Shown here: one piece after another, positions 13,101-35,332 of the stretch
Position numbering within the stretch: position 1 is the stretch's first letter
Layout: every line of letters begins with the position of its first letter
Assembly (NCBI GenBank): GCA_950295325.1
Contig: OX485805.1
Coordinates: 36,441,501 to 36,505,500 of the forward strand
Direction: 5' to 3'
Length of the DNA stretch: 64,000 bases
DNA from: Polytrichum commune
Lineage: Eukaryota > Streptophyta > Polytrichopsida > Polytrichales > Polytrichaceae
Position numbers and translations under genes: made by a program
Notes under the pieces: model-generated
Told to the model about the DNA's origin: nothing
The model's database searches: none
Seen by the model: only the letters and a program-made list of their open reading frames with translations

Positions 13101-13376
13101 AAGGGCATTAAGGTCATAAGGTTAGGGGGGGGGGGGGGTCATATTCAAAATGATTTTAGATTTTCAATTTTGGCTTATATCTCAAACTTGCAACCTTTAG
13201 AGAGTCCATTCGGGGCCCAACATAGTCTGTAGGGATTTCAGTTTGAAGTTAGAATTCAAGTCAATTCAGGTTCAAGGGCATTAAGGTCATAAGGCTGGGG
13301 GGGGGGGGGTAATATTCGTAATGATTTTAGATTTTCAATTTTGGCTTATATATGAATTTTACAACCTTTAGAGAGT
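4105..13376 (+). repeat. Satellite array 1, about 170-bp monomers with a poly-G tract
   Basis: Head-to-tail monomers of roughly 168-175 bp, about 54 copies judged from array length. Each consists of TCATATTCATAATG...GATTTTCAATTTTGG, a variable block (GCAACCTTTAGAGAG or CTTGCCTTTAGAGAG), CATTCGGGGCC or CATTCCGCGCC, AGCATAGT(CTGT/ATCT)AG, AGAATTCAAGTCAATTC, GGCATTAAGGTCATAAGG, and then a run of 7-17 G. Most of the length variation is in the G run. All copies point the same way. The first monomers (4105 to about 4450) are the most divergent. A larger period is visible: the GACGCATATAT variant occurs near 7372, 9592 and 12828, the first two about 13 monomers apart. No coding capacity. Confidence 0.97.
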
Positions 13377-13378
13377 AA

Positions 13379-13404
13379 TACTATATTCGGTAATTGGAGA
13401 CTTT
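13379..13404 (+). repeat. Left terminal inverted repeat of the giant element
   Basis: Reads TACTATATTCGGTAATTGG and then AGACTTT. It is the inverse of 41597-41622 with two mismatches (first base T for C, and G for T at position 12). Preceded by TAA, abutting a satellite monomer broken after TTTAGAG AG. Confidence 0.75.
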
Positions 13405-13849
13405 TTGTTGATTATGAGACTATATAAGGATGCACATTTCAAAATTGGACCAGTAATGACGACTAAAAATCCCATATGTATAATGGTATGCTTCTATTAT
13501 TATACATAAAGGCATGGAAGTGAACAAAAATGTGAGGCATACATGAAAATAGTTGCGTATGAAATGACAACTCGTTATGAATGGAAGGGAAGATGCGAAG
13601 AATGAATGGAAGTTGAATGAATTAATTGGGATTGAAATACAATTATAATGGAAATACCATCAATGTCTTGAGTAACTTGGAATAGCATAGAAAGTAAGCA
13701 CTTAAATATGTTCTACACCTAAGCCCATTTAGGGAGTCCGTCCCACTAGTACGCTTCTAGTCACACTAGTCCGACCCACTATTTTTTTTTTGCGGCTAAG
13801 TCCTTTTTTTTGGCGGCCTCCATGGCTCTAAAAATCTCAGTCCCACGAC
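13405..13849. other. Left subterminal region, no gene
   Basis: AT-rich sequence with no supported gene. Ends in short poly-T runs near 13780-13810. Confidence 0.5.
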
Positions 13850-14743
13850 CTAATCCTTGTGTGTTGCCTGGATAGGAATATGTGTCGTTCTTGCATGTTT
13901 CAGGACGCGCTCCCGAATTGTACGAGGTGGTATTATAAGTAGAATACGAGGGCGTTTGCGAAAGGGAACGTCTTGCGCTTCTCCGGAGGGCCAGACAACG
14001 ATCGGACTCGGAAGATGCGGCCTTGAGGGCGTGCCTATCCAAGGAGGACGTGGAGGAGGGCCGGGCACCAAGCGAGCGGGTAGCCACCTGCGAAACAACG
14101 TCATAGGAAGATAAGAATAGGAATGGAGTGGGGAAAATAATGAGGGCGGTTTGGGATGGGCGCTCGTAAAGAGAACGGCACGCACACGGAAGACAACCAA
14201 AGCAAAAGCGGGAAAGGGGTTCAGGGTTGAGGAGGGCACCTTGGCTTTGGGGACGTCCATGCGGGGAACGGTGGGAACGAGGGGGGCGTCGACGGGAGCA
14301 TCTGGAGCCGATGGAACTATTGCAATTATGTTGGATGGCGGGGGGGAGTCGAGGCGTGGAGGGCCCACGATCGCGGAGGACGTTGCGGGGGGAGGAACGG
14401 AGTCGGCGGGGGAGGTGTGGCAACAGGGGCCTTCCATGCGGAGACGCCGGCTCGGCCCGCGACGAGCGACGGCGTCGTCCCTCGAGGGCGAGAGGTGTCC
14501 CAAACGAACGAGCGTCCGTTTCTCCTTGGAGAGGGGGGAGGGCGACGGGGCGTACGCGCGGGGGACAAGTGGTGGGGGCGGGCTGTTGACGACGCCGTCG
14601 TCGATGCCGACGTCGCGGGAGTAATCCACGGCCGAGGCCGCGTCGACCGCCGAGAAGTGGTAGAGGGATGGCATTTGGAAGTCCGTGACGTCGCGGGAAG
14701 GGGAGGCAGGGGGCGAGAGGGGACGGGAAGGGCCGTCGACCAC
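13850..14743 (-). CDS. Hypothetical Pro/Ser/Arg-rich ORF
   Basis: A 297-codon ORF on the minus strand, unusually GC-rich compared with its surroundings, downstream of the FCP1-like exon on the same strand. It encodes a low-complexity protein rich in Pro, Ser, Arg and Ala with no recognisable domain. An overlapping frame (13779-14795) is also open, as expected in GC-rich DNA, so the coding frame is uncertain. The stretch MPSLYHFSAVDAASAVDYS near the N-terminus looks the most protein-like. It could be a C-terminal exon or tail of the gene at 14880-15647, or not a gene. CAA-type triplet repeats lie just upstream (about 14778-14815). Confidence 0.3.
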   Translation of the reverse strand: MVDGPSRPLSPPASPSRDVTDFQMPSLYHFSAVDAASAVDYSRDVGIDDGVVNSPPPPLVPRAYAPSPSPLSKEKRTLVRLGHLSPSRDDAVARRGPSRRLRMEGPCCHTSPADSVPPPATSSAIVGPPRLDSPPPSNIIAIVPSAPDAPVDAPLVPTVPRMDVPKAKVPSSTLNPFPAFALVVFRVRAVLFTSAHPKPPSLFSPLHSYSYLPMTLFRRWLPARLVPGPPPRPPWIGTPSRPHLPSPIVVWPSGEAQDVPFRKRPRILLIIPPRTIRERVLKHARTTHIPIQATHKD

Positions 14744-14879
14744 GGGGGCGTCTCATATGGGGGCAGACTATGGGCAAGAACAACAACAACAACAATCACA
14801 ACAACAAAAGACATCCAAAAACGGAGCAAGCATTAGTAAATGTGAACCACATGATACAAAGCAAAGACATGGAGGCATT

Positions 14880-15647
14880 TCAAATCAATTTATTGAGTTT
14901 GGCGAGCCTCATGATGCTCTTGAATACATTATCACGGGGGCTTAAACCCACATTGCCTATGGGGTTGGACCTAACAAAAAATGGTATGCTACCGGCGTGG
15001 ACAACAAGCCTTCTAAGGTAAGGCGCTAGCGTATCGACCAAAAACGTGTCGTTCCTATCGCCGGTCCAAGTGGCGGGGAAGATGACGTTCCCCGGGGGGT
15101 TCAAGACGCTTTTGGTGGGGTTGTTGTCGACGAGGACGGTGTTCTCGGGGGTCGGCCACCACCCGTGGGGTACCCCCTGCAGCCGGGGGATGCCCCGCCA
15201 CAGTCTTGACCTCAGGACCTTGAGGAATTGTTGTCCTCCGCCACGACCGCCGAACTTTGGAACCGGCATACCCTTTTCGTCAAGCAATTCATCGCAATCC
15301 TCTTGGCCGAGGATGAGGCAAGGGCTCGGAAGATCGCGGAAGAGGAAGTCGACGATTGGCTCGGTGTTCTCCATGACCATGGAGCTCCACACAATGACGT
15401 GAGCTACATCGAGCACCTCTCGAAGGAAGTCACGCAGGCCGGGACGGGCGCGGACAACCTTGCGGTTAATGAGAGTGTCGAGCTCTCCGTCGTAGTCCCT
15501 TTCGTCGGGGTGACGGAAGGGACGCGTGGGGACCCGGGGGATGTGTTCGGTGTGACACAACACCCCGTTCAAGTCGAACACGACGAACGGTTTGTTTCGG
15601 GTAAGACGTCCACTGGTCGAGGGTTTCCGACCTATCTCCGGGGGATC
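14880..15647 (-). CDS. FCP1/SCP-like HAD phosphatase domain protein (5' exon missing)
   Basis: A 255-codon exon with no plausible ATG ahead of the domain. A 3' splice site, TCACAG|GAT, precedes it at 15647, so a short upstream exon is expected. The protein has the order of an FCP1 homology domain: motif I VVFDLNGVLC, then VIVWSSM (motif II serine), a basic LKVLRSRLWR segment, and motif IV NTVLVDNNPTK followed by LNPPGNVIFPATW, which is typical of the plant FCP1-like family. Normal motif I is DxDxT/V and motif IV is DD; here the second Asp is Asn in both, so phosphatase activity is doubtful. It lies inside the giant element on the same strand as the ParB-like gene. Three imperfect palindromes (15764-15870) sit just upstream, probably in its intron or 5' region. 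Confidence 0.8.
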   Translation of the reverse strand, partial: DPPEIGRKPSTSGRLTRNKPFVVFDLNGVLCHTEHIPRVPTRPFRHPDERDYDGELDTLINRKVVRARPGLRDFLREVLDVAHVIVWSSMVMENTEPIVDFLFRDLPSPCLILGQEDCDELLDEKGMPVPKFGGRGGGQQFLKVLRSRLWRGIPRLQGVPHGWWPTPENTVLVDNNPTKSVLNPPGNVIFPATWTGDRNDTFLVDTLAPYLRRLVVHAGSIPFFVRSNPIGNVGLSPRDNVFKSIMRLAKLNKLI

Positions 15648-15763
15648 CTGTGATTAACAACTCGACTAGTTTAATTCTATGATCCAATAAATAACATTGC
15701 ATTAAGGAAAAGACGATTATGCGAGGAAAATAGTGCAAGGAGAATGTGGTCAAGTGCAGACTT

Positions 15764-15870
15764 GCGAACGAGCGTTCGTGAATGAAGGCTGGGGTGGCGC
15801 ACCATTTACGAACACTCGTTCGTGAAGGAGGTGGACAGATGGTCGCACCCTTTTGCGAACGGGCGCTCGT
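15764..15870. promoter_or_regulatory. Three imperfect ACGAACG-N2-CGTTCGT palindromes upstream of the FCP1-like exon
   Basis: Sites at 15764-15779, 15808-15823 and 15855-15870, spaced 44 and 47 bp apart. These are the most degenerate copies, for example GCGAACGGGCGCTCGT. They belong to the family described at 23451-24118. Confidence 0.7.
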
Positions 15871-16163
15871 TAATGAGGTGGGTGTGAAAGTGTAATGATG
15901 CGCATGAACATACATAATACAAGATGCGATACGATACAATAAGTTTGGGAGATGCGACGCAGAGATCATCTGCTCATATATTAATTCGGTGAATATTTAC
16001 AATTGTCTCACGTGATAATTTTTCACAGTTTCCTATGGCAAATACATGCCGTGTTCTACAAAATTTATCGGGCTAAGGGTCCACGTAGAGAAGGGTCCTC
16101 GCACGCCTCGTGATGCTGATGGACAGGAACCGCCAAGAACACAACGCGCATGGGTTAGTGGTT

Positions 16164-16285
16164 ACGAACGCGCGTTCGTCAAATGAGTGGTATTCTCAGA
16201 GGAGAGTTACCTCGTCATCGGGGGGAGGGGCAGCGGTGCTGGACCGAGCAGTTCCCTCCTCTTCGATTAACGAACGCGCGTTCGT
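16164..16285. repeat. Two perfect ACGAACG-CG-CGTTCGT palindromes
   Basis: Sites at 16164-16179 and 16270-16285, both with CG at the centre. They lie downstream of the stop of the coiled-coil ORF (16391) on the minus strand, in its 3' region. Confidence 0.85.
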
Positions 16286-16390
16286 AATCCCCATTGGTCC
16301 AGCCGCCTCTGTTTCCATGGCATATGTGGCACGCTCCGACTGTGACGCCCGGGTCTGCACAATGTGGTCCGCGTTGTCGTCGTCGTCGTC

Positions 16391-17363
16391 TCAGCCCAGG
16401 TCGAGAGTGTCCATGCGGACATCCTCCATCTCCGCGGATGGATGTCGTCCCAGGTCAGGGCTCTCAACGTCCATTCCTTGGACAGCTGCCGCGTCATTGG
16501 GGCTCCCCTGCGTTTCCTCCACAATGACCATGTCAGTGTGTTGCGCATATTCATCGCCCTGCCTATCCACTACCCTCGGGACGACTGTCAAAGAGGCGGT
16601 GTCAGTGGCTGAGGCCAGTCCTACCCTTGGAGGGGGGGGAGTTAGGACTGCCGGACCTGAGGATTCACGAACGTGCGTTCGTAAATCTTCGTCCTCGCGT
16701 ATGGCAGCCCTTATCGCATCGTGGGAGTTGGCGGGGGTGGTAGTCATTTCAGGGGGCGGAGGACTCCCAGCTGGCGTTGGGTGTGGTGCTGGTGGGTGCG
16801 AAGGTCCTCCGGGGAACAAGCCTGGAGGGGGGGAATGGGAGGGGTATCCTCCGGGGAAGGGGTAAGGCTGTTGTGCTGGCGCCGAGAAGCTCTGCATATT
16901 TCTGAGCATCTCAAATATGGCGTCCGTCTTTGCTGCGGACTCCCGCAACGCCTCCTGCATGCGGGCCATATTTCTTGCACTCTCCTCTGCCGCAGCCGCC
17001 ATTTCCTCCTTCATTTTTTGCTCTAGCTTGGCATTCAGCTTGGCAACGGTCAGCGCCTCCTCCTTCACCCGCTTGTTCTTGTCGTAATCGACCCCCAGCT
17101 CCGTCATGATGTCCATGTCCCCCTCGTCTTCGTCCGACACCTCGATGATTGCTCCCTCAGGCAACTCCACGTACGGCGTCTTCTTCATCCTCCTCCTCGT
17201 GTTCCGGAAGAGGTCCAAGGATGGACGCGAGCGTTGGTCGAGGAGGTCGAGGGTCTCCATCCTCGGAACGACGACGGGCCTTGGAGACACTGACGTCGAA
17301 CAGCCGCCAGGCGTGCCTAAGGCTTCCGCACCCGACACTCTAGCGGGGAGGACATCCTGGGTT
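16391..17363 (-). CDS. C-terminal exon of the ParB-like multi-exon gene: coiled coil plus Pro-rich tail (tentative)
   Basis: A minus-strand ORF of at least 315 codons; the frame is open back to a possible acceptor CAACCCAG|GATG near 17363. It encodes an acidic segment (EVSDEDEGDMDIM), then a long charged helix predicted to be coiled coil (from VDYDKNKRVKEEAL through KLEQKMKEEMAAAAEESARN to AIFEML), then a Pro/Gly-rich region (PYPFPGGYPSHSPPPG) and an acidic C-terminus. One palindrome (16667-16682) lies inside the frame and is translated as LRTHVRE. Strand, order and spacing make it the likely 3' part of the gene at 17378-23416, but the joining splice is not certain. No enzymatic domain recognised. 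Confidence 0.5.
16667..16682. repeat. ACGAACG palindrome inside an ORF
   Basis: Perfect arms with TG at the centre, lying within the minus-strand reading frame at 16391-17363. Confidence 0.85.
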
Positions 17364-17377
17364 GTCCCAGCCGAGGA

Positions 17378-17668
17378 TCATGTATAGCGCCCCGGTGTCC
17401 CTTGGGGGTTAGAAGGGTGACCCGCTGGCGCCAACATCCGTAAAGGAGTGATGTTGAACGACTGCAAGATGGCGTCCACGTCCACAGAGGGCGCGGGCTC
17501 GTCATCGTCTGTCTCCATGCCCGGCATGCCCTCGTCGACGGGCATGCTGAAGTCCTCCCTGGGGACACACATATCATCGAGGTCCATTGTGGACGCTTTC
17601 ACCCTGTGGACCTGGTATTCATCCTCGTCTTGGGCATCAACGTAGTTATTGACGACCAACCCCAGCAT
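17378..17668 (-). CDS. Exon of the ParB-like multi-exon gene
   Basis: Begins at 17668 after an acceptor GGTACAG on the minus strand, in phase 0 with the preceding exon (which ends at 17837). The encoded segment is acidic (DAQDEDEY, METDDDEPAPSVDVD) with no recognised domain. It runs to a TGA at about 17378. An alternative is a donor near 17430 that would join the C-terminal ORF at 17363. Confidence 0.55.
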   Translation of the reverse strand: MLGLVVNNYVDAQDEDEYQVHRVKASTMDLDDMCVPREDFSMPVDEGMPGMETDDDEPAPSVDVDAILQSFNITPLRMLAPAGHPSNPQGTPGRYT

Positions 17669-17836
17669 CTGTACCAACGATTCCAAGCATGTCAGCATAT
17701 ACGAACGTGCGTTCGTAAACATCAACATTGAGACAAGGCCAGATCAACGCAAAGGGGAAAATGCCACAACTATTATAACATTTGAGTCAATGAAATTTAC
17801 GAACGCGCGTTCGTAAATCTAAGAATGACAACTTAC
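17669..17836 (-). other. Intron carrying two palindromes (17701-17716 and 17799-17814)
   Basis: GT-AG intron of 168 bp on the minus strand: donor CATG|GTAAGT at 17837/17836, acceptor ACAG at 17669. The flanking exons stay in phase 0. It contains two perfect palindromes, one near each end, with centre dinucleotides TG (17701) and CG (17799) on the plus strand. Confidence 0.8.
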
Positions 17837-19162
17837 CATGGCCGCGTACATGAACTTGCTGCTTCCAAAGACGTTGTATACCGTCTCTCCAGCGATTGCC
17901 AAGCTCTGCAACACTGACACGTAGAACTCCAACCTGAGCTCCAGCGCGGGGAAAACCGTGTACAATGTCTCCTGCAGCAGTTCCTTGGGAGGGGGGTGAG
18001 GGATGCTGTATATCTTCTTGAAAGTACTGTTCGCCTTCACAGGCGTTCTCCCATTTCTGAGAGCATTGTACGTTAAGAAGATCAAGCTGACAGCTCCCAC
18101 CTGCTTGTTGCCCCTGGCCTCGTTGATGGCCACGATCCCTTCCGTTTTTGCGGGCACGTAGGTGCTGTGGTAGATGCTATATTCAAATTTGATGGTATTT
18201 TCGTACAGCTCCGTCACAATGGATAGCTTCTCTTGTTCCACTATCCAAAGCCATACGTGAGGCTCCCTCATGTCAGGCGATCTGTAGTCTTGAAACTTTG
18301 CCATGAAAGGGTTGTAGAAGGGAAAATCCTTTGCCCCTTGCCTCGTACCTCCTGGGATCCCCCTGAAATCAATGAGGGCAAATGGGCAACCCCTGCGGTC
18401 CTCCCTCACCTCGGCCTTGCTGATGGTGCCGTCCCACTTAGAAAAAGTGGTCCTCTCCAGCCCGGTGGTTACCAAACAAAACCTGGCCACTCCCTCGAAT
18501 GTGGCCCTCCGCTTCCTCTCCAAAAAATTTATATACAACTCCACCTCCTGGGGATCTGTCTCTGCTTTCTTGGTCCGCTTGTTCCCCTTCAGCTTCAAGA
18601 CGGAGGCGTGTTCCTTAACTAGCCTACGCATGGAAGAGCCGTTGATGTTGTACCCGACCTTGAACTCCTTCCATCCAGCCCAGTTGATGTCCCCGTCGGC
18701 CTGGAAGACTTTGTACTCCGGGACGAGTGCGCCCAACTCCCTCATTGCGTTGGTCTTCAACTTGCGATGTTCGCACCACTCCTTGATGGAGTACGTTCCG
18801 GGCCTGTGCTTTGGCCTCTTCAAAAATATCTTCGGGTAGGGGATTGTTCTCCCGACGGTGTTCCCAAGAGCATGCACTGCACATCTTTGCAATTCCGACT
18901 CCGTCAACCCCTGAAGCGGTCTAAAAAATTCCCTCAGCAACGGAGGGGCTTCCCCAGTCTTCTCCTTGCTATATTTTTCTTTAGTGTCGGGGTTGACGAG
19001 ATCCCGCGCATTGTGAGCATCAAAAAATTGGGTCCACAAATCCCAGGTGTCTCTGTTGCAACAAATAAGACGGAGCTCACCCTTCAGCTCGAGCACCGAC
19101 TTCGTTGAAGTGGACTTCATGTCGATGGAAGAGAATTTGCCAACCATCGCATCGCAAAACGC
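17837..19162 (-). CDS. Large exon (442 codons) of the ParB-like multi-exon gene, unknown domain
   Basis: The frame is open from an acceptor TAATGCAG|GCG at 19162 to a donor ATG|GTAAGT at 17837, exactly 442 codons in phase 0. The protein looks globular with ordinary composition (for example TWDLWTQFFDAH, WAGWKEFKVGYN, GCPFALIDFRGIPGG, EPHVWLWIVEQEKLSIVTELYENTIKF split over the middle). I recognise no family. It is well preserved, with no stop codons, whereas the first exon has a frameshift. It is encoded within the giant element, between the ParB-like region (upstream) and the coiled-coil tail (downstream). Confidence 0.75.
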
Positions 19163-19278
19163 CTGCATTAGAAAGGAATGTCAGCGGGCAATCAAATACG
19201 AACGCACGTTCGTAAATAAAATGATCAGGAATGTTGTAAAGAAACCTGAGAATTACGAACGCTCGTTCGTAAACTTAC
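19163..19278 (-). other. Intron carrying two palindromes (19198-19213 and 19255-19270)
   Basis: GT-AG intron of 116 bp: donor GGAAG|GTAAGT, acceptor TAATGCAG, phase 0. Two palindromes (centres CA and CT) fill much of it, the donor-side one starting only a few bases inside the intron. Confidence 0.8.
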
Positions 19279-19509
19279 CTTCCATTGTGGAGACTGGTTT
19301 TTCGCATTCTCCCTCTCCTTTGGTGGGCACCCGTGTGCCACCCACACGTCTCTCGCAGCCACTATGTTTGCTGCCCATGATGCTTCAAACGCCTTGATCT
19401 TATTCCCGGAATTTAAAAATGTCGAAATTTTCCGGAGTTTGTCCCAGTCGTCTGACCACACCAGGAACGCCTTCCAGTAGCGTGTGAACCCTTTGAGTGG
19501 TCCACCACT
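19279..19509 (-). CDS. Exon (77 codons) of the ParB-like multi-exon gene
   Basis: Begins after TTCTAAC (branch-point-like) and GATCCCGCAG|AGTGG and ends at CAATGGAAG|GTAAGT, in phase 0 on both sides. Encodes a Trp-rich helical segment (RYWKAFLVWSDDWDKL, then ASWAANIVAARDVWVAHG). It continues directly into the 442-codon exon. No family recognised. Confidence 0.7.
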
Positions 19510-22257
19510 CTGCGGGATCACTTTTAGTTAGAATGTTAGCATTAAAAGTTAGAATTGATAGGGAATTTAGGAAAAATTAGTTCATTTAGCATTTAGCCTA
19601 GAAGAAGGAAGGTCAAAATGAAACTAAGTAGTGCTAGAAGATAGCAAAGTAGAAAAAATATGCTAGCTAGTAAAAACAACTAGCTAAGCAAATATTAGTA
19701 GATGCTAGTTATTAAGCAAATGTTAGTAGATGCTAGCTAAGCAAGTGTTAGTTTATTAGTTAGTGTGAGGCACACAAGACTATTGGAGGTGTTTTACGTA
19801 AGAAGATAAAATCGGCGTGAAGAATTTTGAAGACAAAAAAGAAAGAGAGCAAGGGGGATACTTGCCCACTTGCCCCCTTGCCAACTCGATGGCGGAAAAA
19901 TTAGAAAGATTTCTAAAGGTTTTTTGTCGGAGCCACCTCGGCGAGAGGGTGGCAACCTCAACCGGGAAAACCCCCGAGCCAAAATTTCGGGAAAGGGTTT
20001 GAAAAATGGATCCGGTGGAGGAGGGGTCCAACCCTTTTGTGAGAGGGTTTAAAAACCCCTCCTTCCACCTTGTAGCTCTCTCTCTTTCTCTAGTTTTTGG
20101 GCGAAGCCCTGCTTCAATGTAATTAGGAAAAAATCCTTTAGCATGTATTCTCAATGGTCTAAAAAAAAGGCTTGAGAACCTCCTCTACTCTCTCTCTCCT
20201 AGTTAGGTTGTGTGTTTATTAACACACCAACAAAATTATTCCTTCTTTTGTAGAGGTAGGTTGGATGGTAGAGTTTTGAGTAGAGGCATTATAGACCTCA
20301 TCTGCCAATGCCCTGAAGGCTTAGTTCAAAAGCTAGAACAAGATACTTATCATTTTTCTCTTAGAGAGATTTCATATAGCTATCCATAGCCGTTTCCCAT
20401 TTGTGATTTGGTTGAGATGACAATTAGTTATGGATTTTCAAAGATGAAGTAGAAAAACTGGGTGGTCTTGTGGGTAGCGGCTGCTGGATCAGACCTGCGA
20501 GCCCAATAGGAATTTTAATTCCAAGAAATTATATTTTTCCCAAGTAGAACTTTTGTGTAGCTTTCCAAAATGGCTTAGAACATTTGATTTGAGCATGATT
20601 TGAATTAGATATGAATTGTGCAAGATGGGACACATAGTTTGAGAACTTTTGGTTGACTGCTGCATTACAGAGGACCTGCTGGGTTCACTTCGGCTTACCT
20701 TTCTAATCACATATTTTTATCAAATACATCTTTTTAATATCTCTCCAGGGTCATATAGAACGTTTGATTTGACTAAGATTTGAATTAGATATGAATTGTT
20801 GAAGGCGAGATACATAGTTTAAGCCTTCTTGATTGACTGCTGTGTTACAAGGAGTCCGCTGAATTTCTATTAGCTTAACCTGCTGATGTCATAATTTTTT
20901 CTAGTTAGAGCTTGTTCATAGCTTTCCAATGGTATAAGGAAAGCCTAGATCCAAGTAGTAAGGAATGTGCTATGAATTCTTGAAGTTAGAAGGTAGATAG
21001 GTGGGTTGGAAGGGTCGGTTGAATCGACCTCACACTTCCAACCCTCATAACTTTTGCATTTCTTATCCCATTAGAGTGATTTTTAGATCATTGGAAAGAT
21101 AATTTGGTGCACTAAGTATAAAAATTATGCTTAGGATTAAATTACAGGGCAGAATAACACTTTATATTTTAATTGTTAACTAAGGTACGCTTACTACCAA
21201 ACTAGTTACAAAGAAGGAGGCAAGGTCGACGCTCGGAAAGTGGAGCAAGGAAGGAGGTAGCGGCTCGGCCTACATCAAGCCCAAATCAACCGAGGAAAAT
21301 TGAGGTAAATTAACTAACCTTAAGCCTTCCATTTAGGATTGGAGGGAGCACGGCTAAGGTACGCATATCTAAACCCACTCACCTATCTCGTAAGGTCAAG
21401 TGGCTTGACCACTTGACCGCCAAGGGAGTACCCAATTCCATTGTTTTCGGGGCCCTTGGTATGTTTTGTGGTAGTAGCTTCATTTATTAGCAAGTTTCGT
21501 GTGTGGTAAGTCGGATTAATCACCGACACGACCACTCTGAATGTTGTTGGTGGAAAGGTGGGGTTAATGACCCGCGAATCCACTATTATATTGTTGGCCC
21601 CATAGATTGGGAGTAATGGCCCCAATTTATGAAGATTGCGCAACAGGTTGAACCTACAGGTCGCCCGTCACCCTGGTCCCATTGAGTTGCATTTCGTGGT
21701 CTATCCAGTGTAAACACATTTAACAATCAAAACATACAAAATAAATCGTAAACCCTTGTTGGCAAGAGACCCGAGGTAAGGGGTGATGCCTAATATGTTA
21801 ATGTAGTAAGTTAGGACGTGCAAACAAAAGTAAGTAATTAAGAAAGAATTGTGTGAAGGGTGGGACTTAGGCCAAGTTCCCCCGCTTAGAAAACTAAATA
21901 GAACTAAATAAAGAAATAGGAAGAATTGAATGGTCCATCAAATTGTCGTTATTCCGTTCGTTGAGTTAGGGTGGTATGAGTCACACCCGGTTGGGTGTAT
22001 CAGAACCATCCCAATTCACAAATTAGGATTGCCTTGGTTTCAAGGCTGGTGCGTCTGCGCGTAGAATAGGTTGTAGGTTAAGGTTAGAACTAGATATGAA
22101 ATTGGTTAGTGGGGTTTAAAGCCACACTAGTAAAAAACTAAGGCCTAACCTCCGGAGGTACTACGACGCATATTTAATCTCCCTTAAAAATCTAACTACT
22201 CACGTTATACCCTTATCATCCGGGTTCGGCTTGGGCGCCTGCAAATGCAGGCCACCT
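19510..22257 (-). other. Long interval or intron with LTR-like and repeated sequence
   Basis: Lies between two exons of the minus-strand gene and holds no supported ORF. From about 20400 to 21000 a block of about 180 bp occurs three times with decay (anchors at 20581, 20761 and 20941; a TTTGATTTGA...TTGAATTAGATATG core in the first two). That composition is common in plant LTR or leader regions. TAGCTA-rich short repeats lie at 19640-19750. A retroelement fragment inserted in an intron is the simplest reading; no flanking duplication was identified. Confidence 0.4.
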
Positions 22258-23416
22258 TCACCGAAGGGCTTGTGTGATACTTTTAGGCTCCCTCGAAAGG
22301 GGGTGGCCCAAAAGTACCACATAGCGCAGGTCCCCCTTCAGCTCATACTGGAAGTTATCATCCTTGAGGATGATCTGCGATGCCTCCAAGCTGTGTTGTC
22401 CATCAATAATCCAGAACTCCCCGTTCTGGATTCTTGCCCAATCTTTCTCCGTGGGACGGGAAGTGAAACCCTTTGGCATAACGCACAGTTTGCCTATCCC
22501 ACTTCACGTTATTCATCAGGTTGTTGATTTGCCACTTCACACCTCCGCTTTCACGTGACCTCACCACCCACTTGTTGGGGGATTTCTCGCATTTGAAGCA
22601 GTCCACGTTGAAGGTGAAGTGCCGTCCCATGGGCCAGCAATCCTTCGAGTAATTGTTGAAGTCGCGAAGGATACGAGTCGCCTTTGCCGCATCAGGGTTT
22701 TCCCCCTTCTTCAAAGGAGTCGGCATGATAGGCGGCGAGTTGACCTCAGCTATCTCCATGACACCAGACTTCTCCATATCGTCCCGAGTTCTTTTGGATG
22801 GCGTGGAGTGTCTGCTTGGCCCTTCTGACAATCTGCTAGCTGAAGGCACTGGCCGCGGCGCACTTCTAGAACCTCCTGCTCCGGATGCAGTAGGTTTTTT
22901 AGGACTCTTCTTCTTGTTGTTGGCCTCCACGACGGCACTGTTATACTTGGACATATTAAGGGCCAGTGCTGTCAGCTTCCTGGCTGTCCAATGCCGGCTG
23001 AGGCTGTACTTCGTGAAAAGGTTCATGAGGTCGAAATGCTTGGCATCCTCTACAACATTATTCTGTGCGTATGTATGGGAGAAAGGGTGCCTCCTGAAGT
23101 CCAGCAGGAGGTTGATGTGGTCTTTTTTGTTTTTCAAGTCCAAGATAACAAAATCACCCTGTGCCTCTATGGACTCTATCTCCCATGTCTTCATCTGCAC
23201 CCACTGCTCCGGCTGGTCTGGCCTTGTCTCCAACTCGTATGTGAACCTCAGGGCGAACAATCCACCCTCGATTTTCTCCGGGAGCGCCGTCCACTCCCCC
23301 ATGAAATCATCTTTGGGGACGTAGTTATCGTTCCCATTGTCATCTGTCACTGACTCCGGAAGCCGATCCAACTGAACCGCGAACATCTCGATTGCGCTCC
23401 TGACTGGTCTAGCCAT
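22258..23416 (-). CDS. ParB-like (DGQH motif) first coding exon, with one frameshift
   Basis: ATG at 23416 (MARPVRSAIEMFAVQLD), directly after TTGCAG, so a 5' non-coding exon is likely. About 300 residues follow: a globular N-terminal region, a Lys/Ser/Pro-rich linker (KKKSPKKPTASG to STPSKRTRDD), and a segment ending WQINNLMNNVKWDR. Near 22478-22500 the frame must shift by one base to read MPKGFTSRPTEKDW and then EFWIIDGQHSLEAS, which resembles the DGQHR/DGxHR signature of ParB/Srx-fold nucleotide-binding domains. That fold assignment is by motif only. The frameshift may be a real inactivating change or a sequence error. Downstream splicing from this exon is not resolved. Twelve palindromes lie immediately upstream (23451-24118). 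Confidence 0.6.
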
Positions 23417-23450
23417 CTGCAATGTAACAGACACCTTCAGAATTGCATTT

Positions 23451-24118
23451 ACGAACGCGCGTTTGTTACTGTCATTTGCGGGTCGTCAATAAATCATTTA
23501 TTATTGGCAAGACATCTGTTGGTTCTTGTTTACGAACGTTCGTTCGCAAATTTGGTTTGATTTCCAAGGTGTTATTCATTTTCTATAAATACGAACGCGC
23601 GTTCGTATTTGTGTGCTTTGATTTTCATATGGCGTTATCAAAAGGTGTGGGGTTCGTTTTTAGGTTCATTTTGGGCTCATTTTTATTAGTTTTTTGGTAC
23701 ACATATTTATGTCCATGCCTTTGTGTAGATTTACGAACGCGCGTTCGTGAATCTTGGGTGTTTTTGGATCCCTGGTTACGAACGATCGTTCGTAAATCTA
23801 CGATATTGATATGATTCAGTGTATGTTCACGAACGGACGTTCGCAAATACAAGATGTTCCTTATTTAATCAATTACGAACGCACGTTCGTAAAGGTAGAA
23901 GGTGAGTGGGTATTTTACGAACGCACGTTCGTAAAGGTAGAAGGTGAGTGGGTATTTTACGAACGCACGTTCGTAAAAGTAGAGGGTGAGTGGGTATTTT
24001 ACGAACGCACGTTCGTAAAATTAGAAGGTGAGTGGGTATTTTACGAACGTGCGTTCGTAAAAGTAAAGGGCTTGGTGTATTAGATGTATAAACGCCACAT
24101 TTACGAACGATCGTTCGT
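23451..24118. promoter_or_regulatory. Cluster I: twelve 16-bp ACGAACG-N2-CGTTCGT palindromes
   Basis: Starts at 23451, 23532, 23591, 23733, 23778, 23829, 23875, 23917, 23959, 24001, 24043 and 24103. Most extend to TTTACGAACG / CGTTCGTAAA. The copies from 23875 to 24043 are exactly 42 bp apart, in a tandem repeat whose unit also contains GTAGAAGGTGAGTGGGTA. The cluster lies immediately 5' of the ParB-like gene (minus strand, ATG 23416), so it is in its promoter or 5' intron. Each copy is rich in CpG. The role as a binding site is inferred from symmetry, copy number and position. Confidence 0.85.
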
Positions 24119-24639
24119 AAATGTGGTCGTCTGTGTATGATAATAAATGCTTTCCGTACATATACGGATATGTATACATACGTATACGTATGTATGTGTT
24201 TATGAATGTTGCTATCGACATTGCTTGGATTTCTGCCTGCAACTCTTGATCAGAATGATGAAACACAAAGTGAAACATGGAATGACAACAAAATTTAGAT
24301 TCAGTGATTAAGAATTCATAATGAAGAGGAAAGTCCTAATTCATACAAAACATGACAAAGCTCATAATGCATAAAACATAACACATGGAATTCAACAAAG
24401 AACAATTCGAGATTGGAAAGAAGTGTTTTGAAAAGGAAACCTGTACTCACATTGAATTGTTGCACACCCAAAACTTGCTGCCTGCTACTCAGAAATCCAG
24501 AAACCTCACAAATGCACTGAATTCGCTTTCAAATGTAATCTTCTACCCTCGCTCCTTTCTCACACTCTCAAGCCTTCAGAACTTATTTACAAATCCTACA
24601 AATATTCTGATGTACACACAACTCACAAGCTTTCTGAAA
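24119..24639. other. Non-coding sequence between cluster I and the minisatellite
   Basis: No supported gene. A small alternating ATACGTATACGTATG palindromic stretch lies near 24160-24200. Confidence 0.4.
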
Positions 24640-24960
24640 CTCTCAAGCTCTCAAGCTTCTTGAAACACTCAACCTTTCAAGCTTTCTAAAACTCTCAAGC
24701 TTTCTAAAACACTCAACCTCTCAAGCTTTCTAAAGCACTCAACCTCTCAAGCTTTCTAAAACTCTAAACCTCTCAAGCTTTCTAAACCTCTCAAGCTTTC
24801 TAAAACTCTCAAGCTTTCTAAAACACTCAACCTCTCAAGCTTTCTAAAACTCTAAACCTCTCAAGCTTTCCAAAACTCTAAACCTCTCAAGCTTTCCAAA
24901 ACTCTCAACCCTCTCAAGATTTCTAAAAATCTCAACCTCTCAAGCGATCCTACTCTCAAG
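24640..24960. repeat. CTCAAGCTTTCTAAAAC minisatellite
   Basis: Irregular tandem copies of CTCTCAAGCTTTCTAAAAC alternating with CACTCAACCTCTCAAGC, units of about 19-27 bp, more than ten copies. Non-coding. Confidence 0.85.
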
Positions 24961-25144
24961 CTTCTGACAATGCGCGCCAAGAATAAACATAAAATGTGGC
25001 TATACAAATGGCAAGGGCTTCGCCGCACCTAAGCTCTCCCCTCTTCCTCTGCTCCAAATGACAAATGAGGAGGAGAGGAAGAGGTGCGGGGAGGTAGCCG
25101 GCACCGCTATGGTTTCCTGGCGGCGGCCACGTGGCTGACAGCCA

Positions 25145-25235
25145 CTGGCCAGGGCTGGGATGGGGATGGGGAGGGGAGGGAATGGGGAGGGGAGGGATGG
25201 GGATGGGGATGGGGATAGGGAGGGACGAGGGTTTA
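25145..25235 (+). repeat. GGGGATGGGGAGGG low-complexity tract
   Basis: Repeated GGGGATGGGG and GGGAGGGG units on the plus strand, with several G runs of 3-4 in close succession, so G-quadruplex formation is possible. Preceded by a GC-rich stretch (25010-25140) with no supported ORF. Confidence 0.75.
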
Positions 25236-25384
25236 CGAATTAAGAAATACGAAATGGTGGGAGCTTAGTTCGGGGACATGAATTTTACATTCCGTATCCC
25301 CTTAATACCTCTACAGTTGGATTCCTTGTAAACATATTTTAGAAAAGTATGTTCAGTTAATTTGTACAACACAATGCATGTCAT

Positions 25385-25615
25385 TTAGTAGGTTTTCGAT
25401 GAAGAATCCACCCCAATGTGTATATGGTGTTTTGCAAAATAGAGTTTTCATGAACCACACATCCTTAAAGTTGTTCAATGGTTCCTCAAACAAATTTTAC
25501 ATACATAAAGGATGCATTTTGAATTGTGGAGAGGGGCTATCAAATTCTCCTCAAGAGGTGGGGGAAAATTCATTTTTCAATACGATGTCATTAATTTCAT
25601 GAGGTGTTAGCTTGA
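25385..25615. repeat. Diverged direct repeat, copy A (with 26505-26755)
   Basis: Shares ATCCACCC, GTGTATATGGTGTTTT, GTTCAATGGTTCC, ATTGTGG and CAAGAGGTGG, in the same order and spacing, with copy B. Non-coding; likely an old repeat family. Confidence 0.6.
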
Positions 25616-25676
25616 CCCACCCTTAATATGATATTTAGTGTTAGATACTCTAAATACGAACGCATAGTACACTAAG

Positions 25677-26206
25677 GGCATGTTTAGACTTGGGGCCAAG
25701 GCCATTGTGAACGAAGGCCAATATGTCCCATGTGGCATGCAAATGGGCCCCCAAGGCCATTAATTTAATAAGAAAGTAACCTAACTCCATTCATTGCTTT
25801 CATGTGTAAACATATTTAGGTGGGGTTGGGGCCATTTGGAGGTTGCAATTATGAGAGGGTTATGAGAGGTTCCAACGTACTTATGAACTATTCTATGGAT
25901 AATGATTAAAGTATAATAAATTTAGAATTTCTCCCCTCCTACTCAATGCTCAAAGAATAAACTACTATAAGCGAATAAAAGCTCTAACAATGGCCTCAAC
26001 AAGAGGGAAAGAGTCCACAATGTTGGGAGCTCTCTTTTCCAAGGCTTGAGGCCATTGTCATGATGAATAAAATAATTTATTTGTGATTGGCCCCAACTCA
26101 TGGTCTAAACTTGAAGAGGCGAATCCCAACCTCTCTACCAATGAGAGGAGTGGATTTCCTTCACCCCAACCCATTTTTGAGCCTTGACTCCAAGTCTAAA
26201 CCCGTC
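25677..26206. mobile_element. MITE-like element, 530 bp, with 5-bp target duplication CTAAG
   Basis: Left end GGCATGTTTAGACTTGG and right end CCAAGTCTAAACCCGTC are inverted repeats (about 14 of 17 match). CTAAG occurs directly outside both ends (25672-25676 and 26207-26211). Inside, GGCCAAGGCC-like motifs recur near both ends. There is no coding capacity, so it is non-autonomous. The ends resemble common plant MITEs; the superfamily is not assigned. Confidence 0.75.
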
Positions 26207-26278
26207 CTAAGTATCACTAACGATCTAAACCCTAAGCCCGCAAACCACATATTAGACAACTTTCACAAACCATATACA

Positions 26279-26325
26279 CTAACCCCAAACCCCAAACCCC
26301 AAACCCTAACCCCTAAACCCTACAT
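26279..26325 (-). repeat. Short interstitial telomere-like repeat
   Basis: Runs of CCCCAAA and CCCTAAA-type units (several CCCCAAA, then CCCTAACCCCTAAACCCTA), matching the Arabidopsis-type plant telomere repeat in part. Too short and degenerate to be a chromosome end. Confidence 0.65.
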
Positions 26326-26504
26326 CTTTTTATCAAACCAACCCTTCTTAGGAGGTCAAGTCATTTAATTAGTTGTCGACTTGAACTAACAAACGAATTC
26401 TAGTGCCATCAACTTTAAATTTCACCAAATTGAATGATCAATTGCATTTAAACTTATAGTTCATAATATGGTCCGATGTTTGGCGAGCCTCAAGTGTAGG
26501 GGGT

Positions 26505-26755
26505 GGATTCAAATGAAAAATCCACCCGCAAGCATGTGTATATGGTGTTTTAAAATATAATTTTTTCATGGACAATATGTCTTTCAAGGTGTTCAATGGT
26601 TCCTTAAAAACCAATTATTGGATAAAGGACTCAATTTCAGATTGTGGCGAGCCTGCGCTATCCTAAACCTTTACAAGAGGTGGAGGAAATTTTATTTCCC
26701 ATAGGACGTCAAACACATGATATTAATAATTGTAAGTGTGACTTCACGTAGGCAT
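26505..26755. repeat. Diverged direct repeat, copy B (with 25385-25615)
   Basis: See copy A. The two copies flank the 530-bp MITE and the telomere-like stretch. Confidence 0.6.
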
Positions 26756-27986
26756 GGTTTCAATTCTTATCATTATCGTATGCACCGTTCCGAAGTGATT
26801 GATCATTTCCAATCATGCCATTTTAATTCATTATTTTCAAACCTAGTGTTACATTTGAATGAAGACCTTACCTACATATATTGGGTATGATTACTTCAAA
26901 ATGTCCTCAATTTACCTAGTACAAGCCATTATGGATTAAGCGACTTTTTATTGGTATTCATGCAGTTGGTGACCATATTAAGGGCATATAGTTATTATAG
27001 AATTTGATCACACAATCCATACTTAATATTATTATAACTTGCATGTCTTAGGCCCTTAATTCATGCGTCAATGATTTTCTGTTCATGGGTCCATGAGTCC
27101 CACTCCCACCTTATTGAGTGATATAAATATAGTTTCTATATTTAGTTTCTTTTATATATCAGGGTTAAGAAGAGTTATGGATGGTATTTCCATTGAATTG
27201 ATTCAAGTTCCATTAATTCTCGGTATGTTCCCTTCCTTTGGGGTCTATTTCTCATTTCATGTGCAAATATTTTCATGTAACTATGTTTTATAATTTCGTT
27301 CACTTCAATGCCTTTATGTCTAATATAAGTTGTATCCGATTTGGAAACTATACGTATGGAAGTTTTAGTTTGTAATTACAAGTCCATATTTGAAATTTAA
27401 AGTGCGTTCTTAAATAGTCTCAAAATCAACTAAATGACTCCAATTACCAAATATACCATTATTGTATTAGATATGAATTGTTAATTAACTTGGACTTCAC
27501 ACCTTGGTTGCAAATCATTTAATCTTCTATGTCAAAATTCATAATATTTAAATATCATGTAACTTATATATGTATATATATATATATAGATTTGGTGGTT
27601 CAGACCTTGCTTACATCTAAGGTGTGCGACCGATTTACATTTTTTTCCAATATAATGTGCGTGCATGCAATACATGTTGCATACAAAATGCTATTTATAT
27701 AATTGGTCATGGTGGGAATCGCATGGCAGGAATGGCATATTGGTAGGTCTAGGTAGGGGGCGGGAGTCCGCTTTTTAAAGAGCATCCAAGAGATTTTGAA
27801 CCACCGGGGGGAGGTACTTAAAGCTTTTCCCCCCACGGGAGAGCTATTTTCTGCGGCTGACGGGAGGTGTGCGCTCTAGAGAGTCGTCGGAGCGCGCTCA
27901 AGCCACCCTCCTGTTCGTCAACCGTACTCCTCACAGGTACAGGACACATCATATCCCTCATATACCGCCGCAAATACCGGATACTT
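26756..27986. other. AT-rich non-coding region, then a GC-richer block
   Basis: No supported gene. A short (TA)n tract lies at about 27568-27590. From about 27720 to 27960 the sequence is GC-richer, without a convincing ORF, and leads into palindrome cluster II. Confidence 0.4.
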
Positions 27987-28971
27987 ACGAACGCGCGTTC
28001 GTAAGTATGAGGTCCCATCACTAGTACAGTTGGATCGGACGGAATGTTGTGGGTTTACGAACGTGCGTTCGTAACTACCAAAGTAGACCAGAGTCGACGT
28101 TGTGACACATGTATATCAATCATGTGCAATGCGAATAGTGGTTCATTTACGAACGTGCGTTCGTAAATGTGGCATCTACGCTTTTATGTGTGTACAATTA
28201 TAAATATAATGGTTGTTCATTTACGAACGTGCGTTCGTAAGTACGCCATCTATGATTTCCTGGTATATACATTCAGATGGGGGTTGCTGTGGTTTTACGA
28301 ACGTGCGTTCGTAAAGATGAGGTCCCATCACTAGAACTGTTGGATCGGACGGAATGTTGTGGGTTTACGAACGCACGTTCGTAACTATCAAATTAGACCA
28401 TAGTCGACGTTGTGACACATGTATATCAATCATTTGCAATGCGAATGGTGGTTCATTTACGAACGTGCGTTCGTAAATGTGGCATCTACGCTTTTATGTG
28501 TGTACAATTATAAATATAATGGTTGTTCATTTACGAACGTGCGTTCGTAAGTACGCCATCTACGATTTCCTGGTGTACACCTGCAGATAGCGATTGTTGT
28601 GGTCTTACGAACGTGCGTTCGTAAAAATGCTATCTATTTTGTCCCGATATACTCTTGGAAATTCAAGATAGTTGTGGTTTACAAATTTTGGTCGTTAATA
28701 CAACATGCGAGTTTTGTACTGGTTTCCAGAAAAAACTCCTCGTTTATAAACCTTTATACCCAAATTCATTCATCCTATGCTATACGAACGTGCGTTCGTA
28801 TAAAAAACTTGTACGTTCTGCTCATGCAGGTCGATGGTCTGTAATTAACGAACGCACTTTCGTAAATTCCATCTGCGATCAATATGATAGCACATTGAAA
28901 GGCTTTCTAAGTTATTGACTTTCACACACAGGCACATTCACTATTGTAGTCGTATACGAACGGACGTTCGT
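27987..28971. promoter_or_regulatory. Cluster II: twelve 16-bp ACGAACG-N2-CGTTCGT palindromes
   Basis: Starts at 27987, 28057, 28149, 28223, 28297, 28367, 28459, 28533, 28607, 28784, 28848 and 28956. Spacing from 28057 to 28607 runs 92, 74, 74, 70, 92, 74, 74, because a block of about 310 bp (beginning GAGGTCCCATCACTAG, near 28009 and 28318) is tandemly duplicated. The last copies are less regular; 28848 has one arm changed (CTTTCGT). The cluster lies upstream of the plus-strand ORF at 29125, as cluster I lies upstream of the ParB-like gene. A half-site (CCGTTCGTGAA) occurs at the start of the ORF itself. Confidence 0.85.
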
Positions 28972-29124
28972 ATTTAGAACTTGACTGATTTGACATGCTG
29001 CGTTGAATGTCGTCCATGTTGGCTGTCATTCTTTCGTTTACGTTTGGGTCTCCTGGTGCCTCTGGTTTTTGTAGGTGGGATGGCGATGCATGTGGGTGGT
29101 AGTTCTCTGGAGTTGTGAACAGAC

Positions 29125-29749
29125 ATGTCGTCCTCCGTTCGTGAATGTGAAATTTCATCCTCATCCGCGGGTAGTTTTGACGACACAAACGTGGAGGGTG
29201 TGTCATTGCGTACATCCTCTCATGATTCTTTTCAAGTGCACGACCGTTCGCTACATTCCGGTGTGGACGACGATGACATTCCTTTGTGTGCAGGATATGG
29301 TAGGGAGAAATGGGTGGGCCTTGATGTGGTTCTACTTAATGATCTAGGTGTCCCGGTGGCAAATGGCATATGTAGAAACTCCGATCCCCGTGAATGTGTT
29401 GATGCCAATCCCCTTGGTCTCCATGATGTTGGGGTGTGCATCTTGAATTCTTTGCTTCCGCTTGAGGTCCCTGTGACTTGGAGGTTTTCATTGCGCCGAT
29501 GGCCCCTTCGTCGGGTTCTCCATGAAGAAGTAAGCTTGTGGGATCATGGGCGACGGCATGAGCAAGTTCAATCAACCTTGGTTTCCAACACTCGTCCTCG
29601 CAAGGGCCTCCGTAGATATGATTCTAGCCGTGCGCCTCCTGATGATAAAGAGTGTTGTGAGACCAAATCCACCACCCTTAAGCGTCCTAGTCCGGGTGAT
29701 GACTTTGAGAATCACATTTATCTATCACAATCATGGAACCATATGCAAG
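29125..29749 (+). CDS. Plus-strand ORF with a transposon-associated (DUF8039-like) domain, first exon
   Basis: ATG ORF (MSSSVRECEISSSSAGSF) open to 29766, with a likely donor ATGCAAG|GTGATT at 29749/29750. After an acidic/Ser-rich N-terminus, residues of about 55-135 (from GREKWVGLDVVLLND through VANGICRNSDP to LPLEVPVTWRFSLRRWPLRRV) resemble the small domain found in plant CACTA-type proteins, where a V(A)xG motif and a final W/R-rich strand recur. This assignment is by remembered pattern only. A Lys/Arg/Pro-rich tail follows. A candidate acceptor at about 29828 (GTGCTAG) joins in phase to a Gln/Pro-rich exon (ELAVPATANQLPPMQSQPQ), which has become the minisatellite. It lies 1.7 kb upstream of the transposase on the same strand. 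Confidence 0.5.
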
Positions 29750-29829
29750 GTGATTTTCATGTTTAAATGAACATGCATTGTCTCACTCATTGTACTTTAT
29801 TAATGTTGGCCTCTTGGCTTGTGCTAGAG

Positions 29830-30793
29830 TTGGCTGTCCCGGCCACAGCTAACCAGCTGCCTCCAATGCAATCACAACCACAACTAACCAGCTGCCTCCA
29901 ATGCAGTCGCAACCACAGCTAACCAGCTGCCTCCGATGCAGTCGCAGCCGCAGTTAACCAGTTGCCTCTTGATACAGTCCCGGCCACAGCTAACCAGCTG
30001 CCTCCAATGCAATCACAACCACAGCTAACCAGCTGCCTCCAATGCAGTCGCAACCACAGCTAACCAGCTGCCTCCGATGCAGTCGCAGCCGCAGTTAACC
30101 AGTTGCCTCTTGATACAGTCCCGGCCACAGCTAACCAGCTGCCTCCAATGCAATCACAACCGCAGTTAACCAGTTGCCTCTTGATACAGTCCCGGCCACA
30201 GCTAACCAGCTGCCTCCAATGCAATCACAACCGCAGTTAACCAGTTGCCTCTTGATACAGTCCCGGCCACAGCTAACCAGCTGCCTCCAATGCACTCACA
30301 ACCACAGCTAACCAGCTGCCTCCAATGCAATCACAACCACAGCTAACCAGCTGCCTCCAATGCAGTCGCAACCACAGCTAACCAGCTGCCTCCGATGCAG
30401 TCGCAGCCGCAGTTAACCAGTTGCCTCTTGATACAGTCCCGGCCACAGCTAACCAGCTGCCTCCAATGCAATCACAACCGCAGTTAACCAGTTGCCTCTT
30501 GATACAGTCCCGGCCACAGCTAACCAGCTGCCTCCAATGCACTCACAACCACAGCTAACCAGCTGCCTCCAATGCAATCACAACCACAGCTAACCAGCTG
30601 CCTCCGATGCAGTCGCAGCCGCAGTTAACCAGTTGCCTCTTGATACAGTCCCGGCCACAGCTAACCAGCTGCCTCCAATGCAATCACAACCACAGCTAAC
30701 CAGCTGCCTCCAATGCAGTCGCAACCACAGCTAACCAGCTGCCTCCGATGCAGTCGCAGCCGCAGTTAACCAGTTGCCTCTTGATACAGTCTC
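29830..30793 (+). repeat. 35/36-bp minisatellite derived from a Gln/Pro-rich exon
   Basis: About 27 units of CAGCTAACCAGCTGCCTCC plus ATGCAATCACAAC-type sequence (35 bp), interspersed with a 36-bp variant (CAGTTAACCAGTTGCCTC then TTGATACAGTCCCGG). Unit types occur in recurring order, a higher-order pattern. The first unit is in frame with the exon at 29125-29749, but the 35-bp period shifts the frame each unit and reaches TAA, so most of the array is not coding. The expansion has therefore probably disabled the upstream gene or become untranslated. Confidence 0.9.
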
Positions 30794-31448
30794 CCCTAGC
30801 CGCTAATCGAGCATTTCCCTAAGTCTTTGTTTTCGATCCTTTACTAATGAATTAATCTAACCCACTAATTCCACTAAATAACTACCTAATCCCCACATGT
30901 TGTCTCAAGCTCTAAGAGCTCACTCCACTTGAGAGGAATTGAGAGAGAGAACTTAACTAATTAAATTCACTAAAAACTAATGTCCTACACGCGTAGCTCA
31001 AGCTTTTAAGAGCTTGCTCCCTTGAGAGCGCTTGATGAAGAGAGAGAGAAATGAGAGAAAAAACACCTTAAGTAGCAAAGAGGGAGAGAGGGAGAGAGGG
31101 GGAAAGAGGTGAGGATAGGGTGAGAGGATTGGCACCTCCAATCACAATCCTTTAACCCTCTCCTCCAAAGTAGGGACTAATCCCCATCCACCAAGCTTCC
31201 TTCTTCCCAAACTACCAAGGTGGATCCAAAAGTGGGCATTTAACTCGCGGAGCTCACCTTGCTTCACCTTACCCCCCACTCACCTAATCAAGGCATCCTC
31301 TTATTGAAGTTAAACCTTGAAATTACTACACAACACATTCTAATGCCTAAACTTAAATCCATACCACACTTCACTCTTTTTATGTTTTGTGAATAATCAT
31401 AGCACATCAAAGTCACACTAAAATTGGTTTCGAAGACTTAATCACCAC
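30794..31448. other. Non-coding region before the transposase
   Basis: No ORF supported. Contains a purine-rich tract of GAGAGGGA units (about 31035-31110) and AT-rich sequence; probably intron or promoter of the transposase. Confidence 0.45.
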
Positions 31449-32379
31449 ATGTGGGCACCATTTTGGGCTCACAAGCGTCGACGGGATCGCATATTAGAAG
31501 ACGATTCTATCCGTCTCGTGTCCGCCAAGGATTGTTGTGCAAAAAGATGTTGCCAATTTTTCCCCCGCGAAAAAATTAAGTCTTTACGTCAGGAGATGTG
31601 GCTCGCGGATTTTCGTATGAGGTCAGCAAAGAAACTCGAGGTCCATAGAAATTTGCACCTTGATGCCCATGGCCATAAGGTGGTGACCCTCGAGAATGTG
31701 GAAGTGTGTTGTACCGCATGGTATACCATTCATGTCGTCTCCAAGGCTGACTTTTATAGGTTTAGAAAGTATTCATCATTGGGTCGTCGCTCTCGATTTC
31801 ATGGCAATGCGGGCACAAAGAAACCTAGGGAGGCTACACTCCAAGCCTCCGCCACACTCTCCATGATCATAGTGCCATTGGCCGATGCAATGCCCCACAA
31901 GACGAGGACATTGTCGACAGGGGAGAAAGTTGTTCAAATGGTGTTGCCCACGGGCACAAAATGGAAGAACATATTAACGGATATCAACGAAGTGGGTCGC
32001 ATAGCGGGTTGTGGGCCCATTTCTTTGTCCAAGTTGAGTGTCATTAAAAACCAACAATTTGCAGAATACATTTTGAAGAGACCTGGTGACAAGTTCGCGA
32101 GGTGCACGACGTGTGAAAAATACAAAGGTCTTCGAGACGCCCACCCCATAGGTACTGAGTCTCATACCAGGCATCAGGCAAAATATATTGAACATGTCAA
32201 CAACCAAGAGGCTCACCGTCAAGATTACTACAAGAACCGTGCTCTATCCATAATGAGGCCTGCAGAGGTTCTAACAATTATCCATGATAAAATGGACCAC
32301 TCGAAGACCGCATGCCCTTGTTATGCTCGCAAAATAAAGGCCACGGATGGTCTTTTCAAGTTGCCCGTATCTGTAACAG
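31449..32379 (+). CDS. DUF7869-type transposase, N-terminal and middle part
   Basis: ORF from ATG 31449 (MWAPFWAHKRRRDR); the true start could be in an upstream exon. Visible motifs: CCAKRCC near residue 29, VEVCCTAWY (Cys pair), the GDKFARCTTCEKY zinc-like Cys pair, and IIHDKMDHSKTACP, which fits the conserved DxxDxxKT region of this family (likely containing a catalytic Asp). The first exon ends at GTAACAG|GTTTGT (32379) and resumes at 32505. It is the transposase-like gene of the giant element, expected to act in the nucleus on the terminal repeats. Family assignment comes from the motif set here plus DNCAKDNK and GHTHDDID in the downstream part. Confidence 0.85.
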
Positions 32380-34761: not shown

Positions 34762-34786
34762 GAACTTTTGGAGCGAGGCCTTCCGG

Positions 34787-35314: not shown

Positions 35315-35332
35315 CCATCCTTTGAGAAAAGG

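Follow-up and report, generated by a model that had tools for sequence, protein, structure and literature searches.

A lineage-specific CpG-rich palindrome in a large element of Polytrichum commune is a putative binding site of an element-encoded regulator

A stretch of 64,000 nucleotides from Polytrichum commune (assembly GCA_950295325.1, contig OX485805.1, positions 36,441,501 to 36,505,500; below, "the window", in whose own coordinates positions are given) contains an element at 13376-41625, located between two arrays of a 170-bp satellite (4109-13376 and 41626-59404). The element carries many copies of the palindrome ACGAACG-N2-CGTTCGT, mostly upstream of its genes and in introns, and related proteins reveal the palindrome, or symmetric variants of it, in other lineages. 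On balance, the sequence evidence favours these palindromes as sites of a symmetric (dimeric) sequence-specific regulator that the element itself encodes, with a split gene on its minus strand as the most likely source.

Results

Exact matches to the palindrome number 27 in the 64000 bases and zero in shuffled sequences. When up to two mismatches are allowed, the window contains 35 copies (shuffle mean 0.03, largest 2), all within the element and spanning 14504-28971. Perfect palindromes of the general form 7-N2-7 occur 41 times, of which 27 are of the ACGAACG type, and any other type is seen at most twice. A preliminary description had counted about 34 copies at 15764-28971. This agrees with the scan, where 34 of the 35 copies are found there and the remaining one (14504-14519, one mismatch) lies beyond that range, still inside the element. 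As it had also stated, the 170-bp satellite, the long terminal repeat (LTR) retrotransposon at 32570-39759 and the sequence beyond the element contain none of the 35. Its claim of confinement to one element holds for the 64-kb window, which is the scope of the scan. The outer TTT/AAA extension is mostly present, with T in 25, 29 and 30 of the 35 copies at the three preceding bases and A in 28, 31 and 25 at the three following ones; the palindrome length is 16-22 bp. In the open-licence literature no described repeat of this form was found among the matches listed.

The two largest clusters contain 12 copies each. One (23451-24118, nine exact copies) is located directly upstream of the split gene ATG, and five of its copies (23875-24058) form a 42-bp tandem array. 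The other (27987-28971, 11 exact copies) lies upstream of a plus-strand gene, and nine of its copies (27987-28622) belong to a 310-bp duplication that itself contains a 74-bp sub-repeat. Three copies with one or two mismatches (15764-15870) are found just upstream of a phosphatase open reading frame (ORF). Introns 3 and 2 of the split gene possess two exact copies each (17701-17814 and 19198-19270); the centre of the copy at 19255 is about 15 nt from the intron 2 splice donor, with splice sites read from the sequence. Three further exact copies (16164, 16270 and 16667, within 16164-16682) lie in or behind exon 3. The copy at 16667 falls within an open frame and is perhaps coding; two copies in the element may be.

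Across the 35 copies each arm column holds 1.68-2.0 bits of information, compared with 0.29 and 0.65 bits for the two positions of the centre, and information drops beyond TTT/AAA. Only 3 of the 140 arm CpGs are changed. The central dinucleotide is CG in 7 copies, TG in 11, CA in 7 and something else in 10, a pattern resembling CpG decay at positions under no constraint; the centre may once have been CG. The duplicated stretches point the same way. Differences within the 310-bp duplication affect 0 of 70 arm positions, 3 of 10 central positions and 20 of the 255 others (Fisher p 0.0066, arms vs outside). The corresponding numbers are 0/56, 2/8 and 7/102 for the 42-bp array and 0/14, 0/2 and 14/57 for one 74-bp repeat. 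The arms are thus nearly invariant, as first described. The accompanying claim that the spacers are unrelated survives in part and fails for the five copies of the 42-bp array and the nine of the 310-bp duplication.

Half-sites with the TT/AA extension are all found in full sites (44 of 44, none solitary), and of the shorter ACGAACG halves 4 of 66 are outside them. Tandem decay was rejected as the origin of the family, since the arms are held while the spacers differ. Plain regional CpG-richness was also rejected because the intron flanks are CpG-poor: with sites masked, the observed/expected CpG ratio is 0.46-0.54 near the introns as well as near the 23417-24160 cluster. It is 0.84 at 27900-29100 and 1.04 at 15660-16150.

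The split gene was modelled from mapped relatives and splice signals on the minus strand (about 23416-16391). The first part of exon 1 (22322-23416) encodes an N-terminal beta-rich domain and the start of a ParB/sulfiredoxin-like domain, and the second part (19279-19482) the remaining ParB-like region; an insertion separates the two. Intron 2 (about 19278-19163) is followed by exon 2 (17837-19162), which encodes a helical region and, probably, a DNA-methyltransferase fold of the beta class (model residues 229-453). Intron 3 begins at about 17836, and a probable exon 3 (16391-17671, boundaries inferred) encodes a low-complexity C-terminal part. The window copy is damaged by the insertion at 19483-22321 and a frame shift near 22486 in exon 1, and the element also received the LTR retrotransposon. 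The 2.8-kb insert in the ParB-like exon has TG...CA ends and a 5-bp duplication, TAGCG, picked among several candidate pairs for such ends.

The predicted protein looks like a fusion of a ParB/sulfiredoxin-type domain with a DNA-methyltransferase fold. It has no Pfam match. Two alignments of the family (A1, A2) were searched against solved-structure sequences, giving one row for A1 (E 0.57) and none for A2; a viral fold library returned nothing at E ≤0.001, and its weaker rows included methyltransferases. A family missing from these fold lists is not thereby discounted. The ParB-like motif reads GQHS in 17 and GQHT in one of the 18 motif-bearing sequences, and in none of these 18 was the conserved box II arginine of the ParB/sulfiredoxin nucleotide pocket found. 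DGQHR-type proteins have an arginine where the relatives have GQHS or GQHT, so that by analogy the last residue of these motifs presumably marks the arginine position. Beta-class DNA amino-methyltransferases carry the catalytic motifs [DNS]PP[YFW] and FxGxG. The former was found in 0 of 113 sequences, only some of which hold the methyltransferase-like domain. Residues D271, F272, R273, P276 and K442 are invariant in the 31 sequences of alignment A1. As far as can be read from the sequences, the active-site motifs of both the ParB-like and the methyltransferase-like parts are altered.

Relatives of the split gene are known as predicted proteins from public sources. Exon 2 found 65, exon 1 found 27 and the exon-2 alignment found 86, in total 112 different proteins. 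Many are over-long predictions which continue beyond the exon end into the intron, and intron DNA was inferred from these tails. The palindrome can be spelled as a peptide in three frames, [YHND]ER[SPTA]FV, RTxVR and TN[VADEG]RS. The 2789 tail residues of the 112 proteins contain 56 peptides of class A (the class of the window) or of class A or B, while shuffled tails give a mean of 0.14 (maximum 2 in 1000) and reversed tails give 0. Of the 77 proteins with tails of at least 10 residues, 51 show one or more sites of any class. Among the 26 without a site are near misses (P0006, P0009, P0022, P0042, P0043, P0046, P0066, P0102) and tails resembling frame-shifted coding sequence. The coding cores contain no site peptides except in the intron stretches of P0065 and P0097.

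Relatives with an identity as low as 38-42% still have the palindrome in the same introns. Of the 14 relatives that show a site in intron 2, 11 have the first one centred 14-16 nt from the donor, and the others have it at 27, 45 or 61 nt; a further three of the 17 proteins gave values above 800 nt, pattern errors that were not counted. The shifted distances include those of P0088 (27 nt) and P0097 (61 nt). In intron 3 the first site is 25-65 nt from the donor (median 38, 33 proteins).

This pattern bears on the idea that the palindrome is a mobile mini-repeat of independent origin, or an introner-like unit, accumulating in noncoding DNA. Many copies, their mainly noncoding location and partly unrelated neighbours would fit such a unit. 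However, the same introns are occupied in these distant relatives, the sequence is clade-specific (see below) and duplicates arose together with longer units, which makes this explanation very improbable. Of the two origins initially suggested, the mobile unit is not upheld: the distance from the donor is kept among close relatives, and tandem copies come from duplication of a longer unit (flanking duplications were not searched for). The other, a putative binding site under selection, is well supported by the constraint on arms relative to centres and spacers, the palindrome in the introns of relatives and the symmetric clade-specific variants.

These variants were found in the more distant relatives. 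In proteins 49-56% identical to exon 2 of the window, the tails contain TD[..]RP and YGR[..]SV, corresponding to ACGGACG-N2-CGTCCGT (class B, 5 peptides); two proteins of this group have RPRGR. In those at 36-39%, WV[..]RP, LGR[..]TQ and FGS[..]DP correspond to TTTGGGTCG-N2-CGACCCAAA (class C, 11 peptides), and CGGTCG (3) and GGGCCG (3) forms are also seen. The arms in distant clades are ACGGACG, GGGTCG, CGGTCG and GGGCCG, and symmetry around CG-N2-CG is always kept. Class C is spelled by 5 peptides in two frames plus 6 WV[..]RP in the third, and for class B the two frames have 3 and 2 peptides (against shuffle means of 0.002 and 0.006); classes D and E have only one cross-frame peptide each. 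Support for the clade variants comes from this spelling of a single DNA word in several frames. Classes B-E were defined after viewing the tails, and class A alone was fixed beforehand.

A tree was built of 84 exon-2 sequences, of which 33 tips had an unambiguous class (13 A including the window, 7 B, 13 C/D/E). Site class requires 2 changes on this protein tree, the minimum, while 300 shuffles need 10-19. The sites are lineage-specific. The agreement rests on three deep clades, however, so the reader of the sites cannot be named from it alone.

It is quite unlikely that the palindromes are captured sites of a host transcription factor or sites of another element protein, such as the product of the plus-strand DUF7869 gene. 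The split-gene product is itself a candidate reader, and sites precede three genes, both of which leave room for such a protein. Clade-specific symmetric variants are nevertheless more readily explained by a partner that the element carries than by a factor of the host, and the DUF7869 side of the element (29119-41625) contains no site with up to two mismatches.

The main and serious rival is an RNA role, unlikely as it appears, in which the self-complementary palindromes would pair a donor-near with an acceptor-near copy and so join the splice sites or mark the transcript. Palindrome-pairing folds of introns 2 and 3 (the latter trimmed by 18 bases for folding) have z-scores of -4.2 and -5.9, and 0 of 200 shuffles are as good. 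The intron 2 site distance is kept in most relatives, as above, and the cluster in front of the gene may lie in a leader intron, as an acceptor-like CAG is found just before the ATG. However, pairing is automatic for any repeated palindrome, and it would permit intron-specific arms, yet one sequence is common to all 35 copies. The 8 imperfect copies carry 9 changes, of which 3 would still allow a G-U pair and 6 would abolish pairing. Two 12-copy clusters are more than bridging requires, and at least six copies (14504, 15764-15855, 16270, 16667) are outside recognised introns. The shared arm sequence and the copies outside introns disfavour RNA pairing as the sole cause.

Searches of other DNA collections gave few hits. 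The palindrome is found in 4 viral contigs and in 2 contigs of the genome collection, with one site each and no cluster (raw counts). Class B and C palindromes are absent from the viral contigs, and class C (up to 3 mismatches) and class E (exact) from the 64-kb window. As DNA, relatives were not detected in the viral contigs with exon 2 alone or alignment A1, nor in the genome contigs with A1, and the right-hand palindrome cluster had no match in phage records.

The element ends in terminal inverted repeats of about 30 bp (13376-13405 and 41596-41625, 93% alike); the right end is CACTATATTCG and the left end TACTATATTCG. No target-site duplication is visible in the flanks, and no equal 3-bp pair. 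An inverted copy of the left end (13382-13626) is found mid-element at 27192-27455 (73% identical), perhaps a sign of a nested or fused element. The phosphatase ORF (14880-15653, minus strand) is of the NIF type (PF03031, E 1.8e-16) and perhaps a captured host gene. The plus-strand gene(s) at 29119-41219 end in the DUF7869 domain (40011-41219, E 1.3e-24), whose product is possibly the transposase of the element; no paper with that domain name was found in the open-licence literature. They are split by the LTR retrotransposon, a young insertion with two 975-bp LTRs that are 99.9% identical and a 5-bp duplication, CTGGC. A 35-bp minisatellite of 26.6 copies (29843-30780) follows the plus-strand ORF and is perhaps a coding repeat. 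The Pfam scan covered 9 of the 22 listed ORFs.

Discussion

The putative reader would combine the ParB/sulfiredoxin-like domain, the helical region and a methyltransferase fold with altered catalytic motifs. The helical region stands where ParB proteins have their DNA-binding helix-turn-helix. Such a reader could coat the promoters and introns of the element, and the coating might prevent host silencing or switch on the element's own genes, much as VANC proteins, which bind their motif and remove DNA methylation, act on VANDAL transposons, though with other parts. Site and protein change together, so each element lineage would read only its own kind.

VANDAL transposons of Arabidopsis carry many copies of a short motif, mainly in noncoding positions (upstream and in introns) and partly in tandem, and the motif differs between families together with the element-encoded VANC protein (PMC5735166, PMC10398659). 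The Polytrichum element is similar as far as those descriptions go: its copies are mainly noncoding with partial tandem arrays, and its motif varies between lineages along with the protein the element encodes. It is this layout, with the motif before genes, in introns, partly in tandem and different in each lineage, that leads us to propose anti-silencing or activation. The described VANC21 motif is the 9-base YAGTATTAY, in one orientation within arrays (PMC5735166), whereas the motif here is a palindrome of 16-22 bp. The protein also differs from VANC as described there in that it has no Pfam match and has ParB-like and methyltransferase-like folds; it is likened to VANC by layout.

According to two further reports, a ParB-CTPase fold fused to a DNA methyltransferase occurs in phages and bacteria and is tied to mobile elements (PMC12704722, PMC5512222). 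The same two folds, here as a resemblance, would be joined in one polypeptide of the split gene, again with a mobile-element link. Unlike the fusions as presented there, the split gene bears introns, has GQHS/GQHT and lacks [DNS]PP[YFW]. Its relative P0097 had no match in 50,697 phage records. A more specific scenario is possible but doubtful: a phage-type ParB-methyltransferase fusion may have become a catalytically dead reader of CpG palindromes, which would load at parS-like sites, spread and block host methylation, matched to its own lineage.

In ParABS systems, ParB binds the 16-bp palindromic parS. The element resembles them in combining a putative ParB-type fold with conserved palindromes that occur in clusters and are about as long as parS. 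The parS sequence differs from that of the palindrome, and the element, unlike those systems, sits in a chromosome. ParA had no match among the nine of 22 ORFs scanned with Pfam; parS was not searched for.

CACTA (En/Spm) transposons have CACTA ends, a 3-bp target-site duplication, a Tnp2/TnpD transposase and TNPA-binding subterminal repeats. The right end of the element also reads CACTA, and it has a repeated motif putatively bound by an element protein. However, its sites are internal, not subterminal, and the ORFs scanned contain no match to a CACTA transposase.

If an element-encoded reader of the palindromes is confirmed, the element would be a second transposon, independently built and after the VANDALs, with its own recognition code kept private by co-evolution. 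It would also be a case of a ParB-type protein with palindromic sites working in eukaryotic chromatin. Public data would then offer many matched pairs of protein and site with which to test the recognition code directly, and inferring intron sequence from over-long protein predictions may reveal such systems elsewhere.

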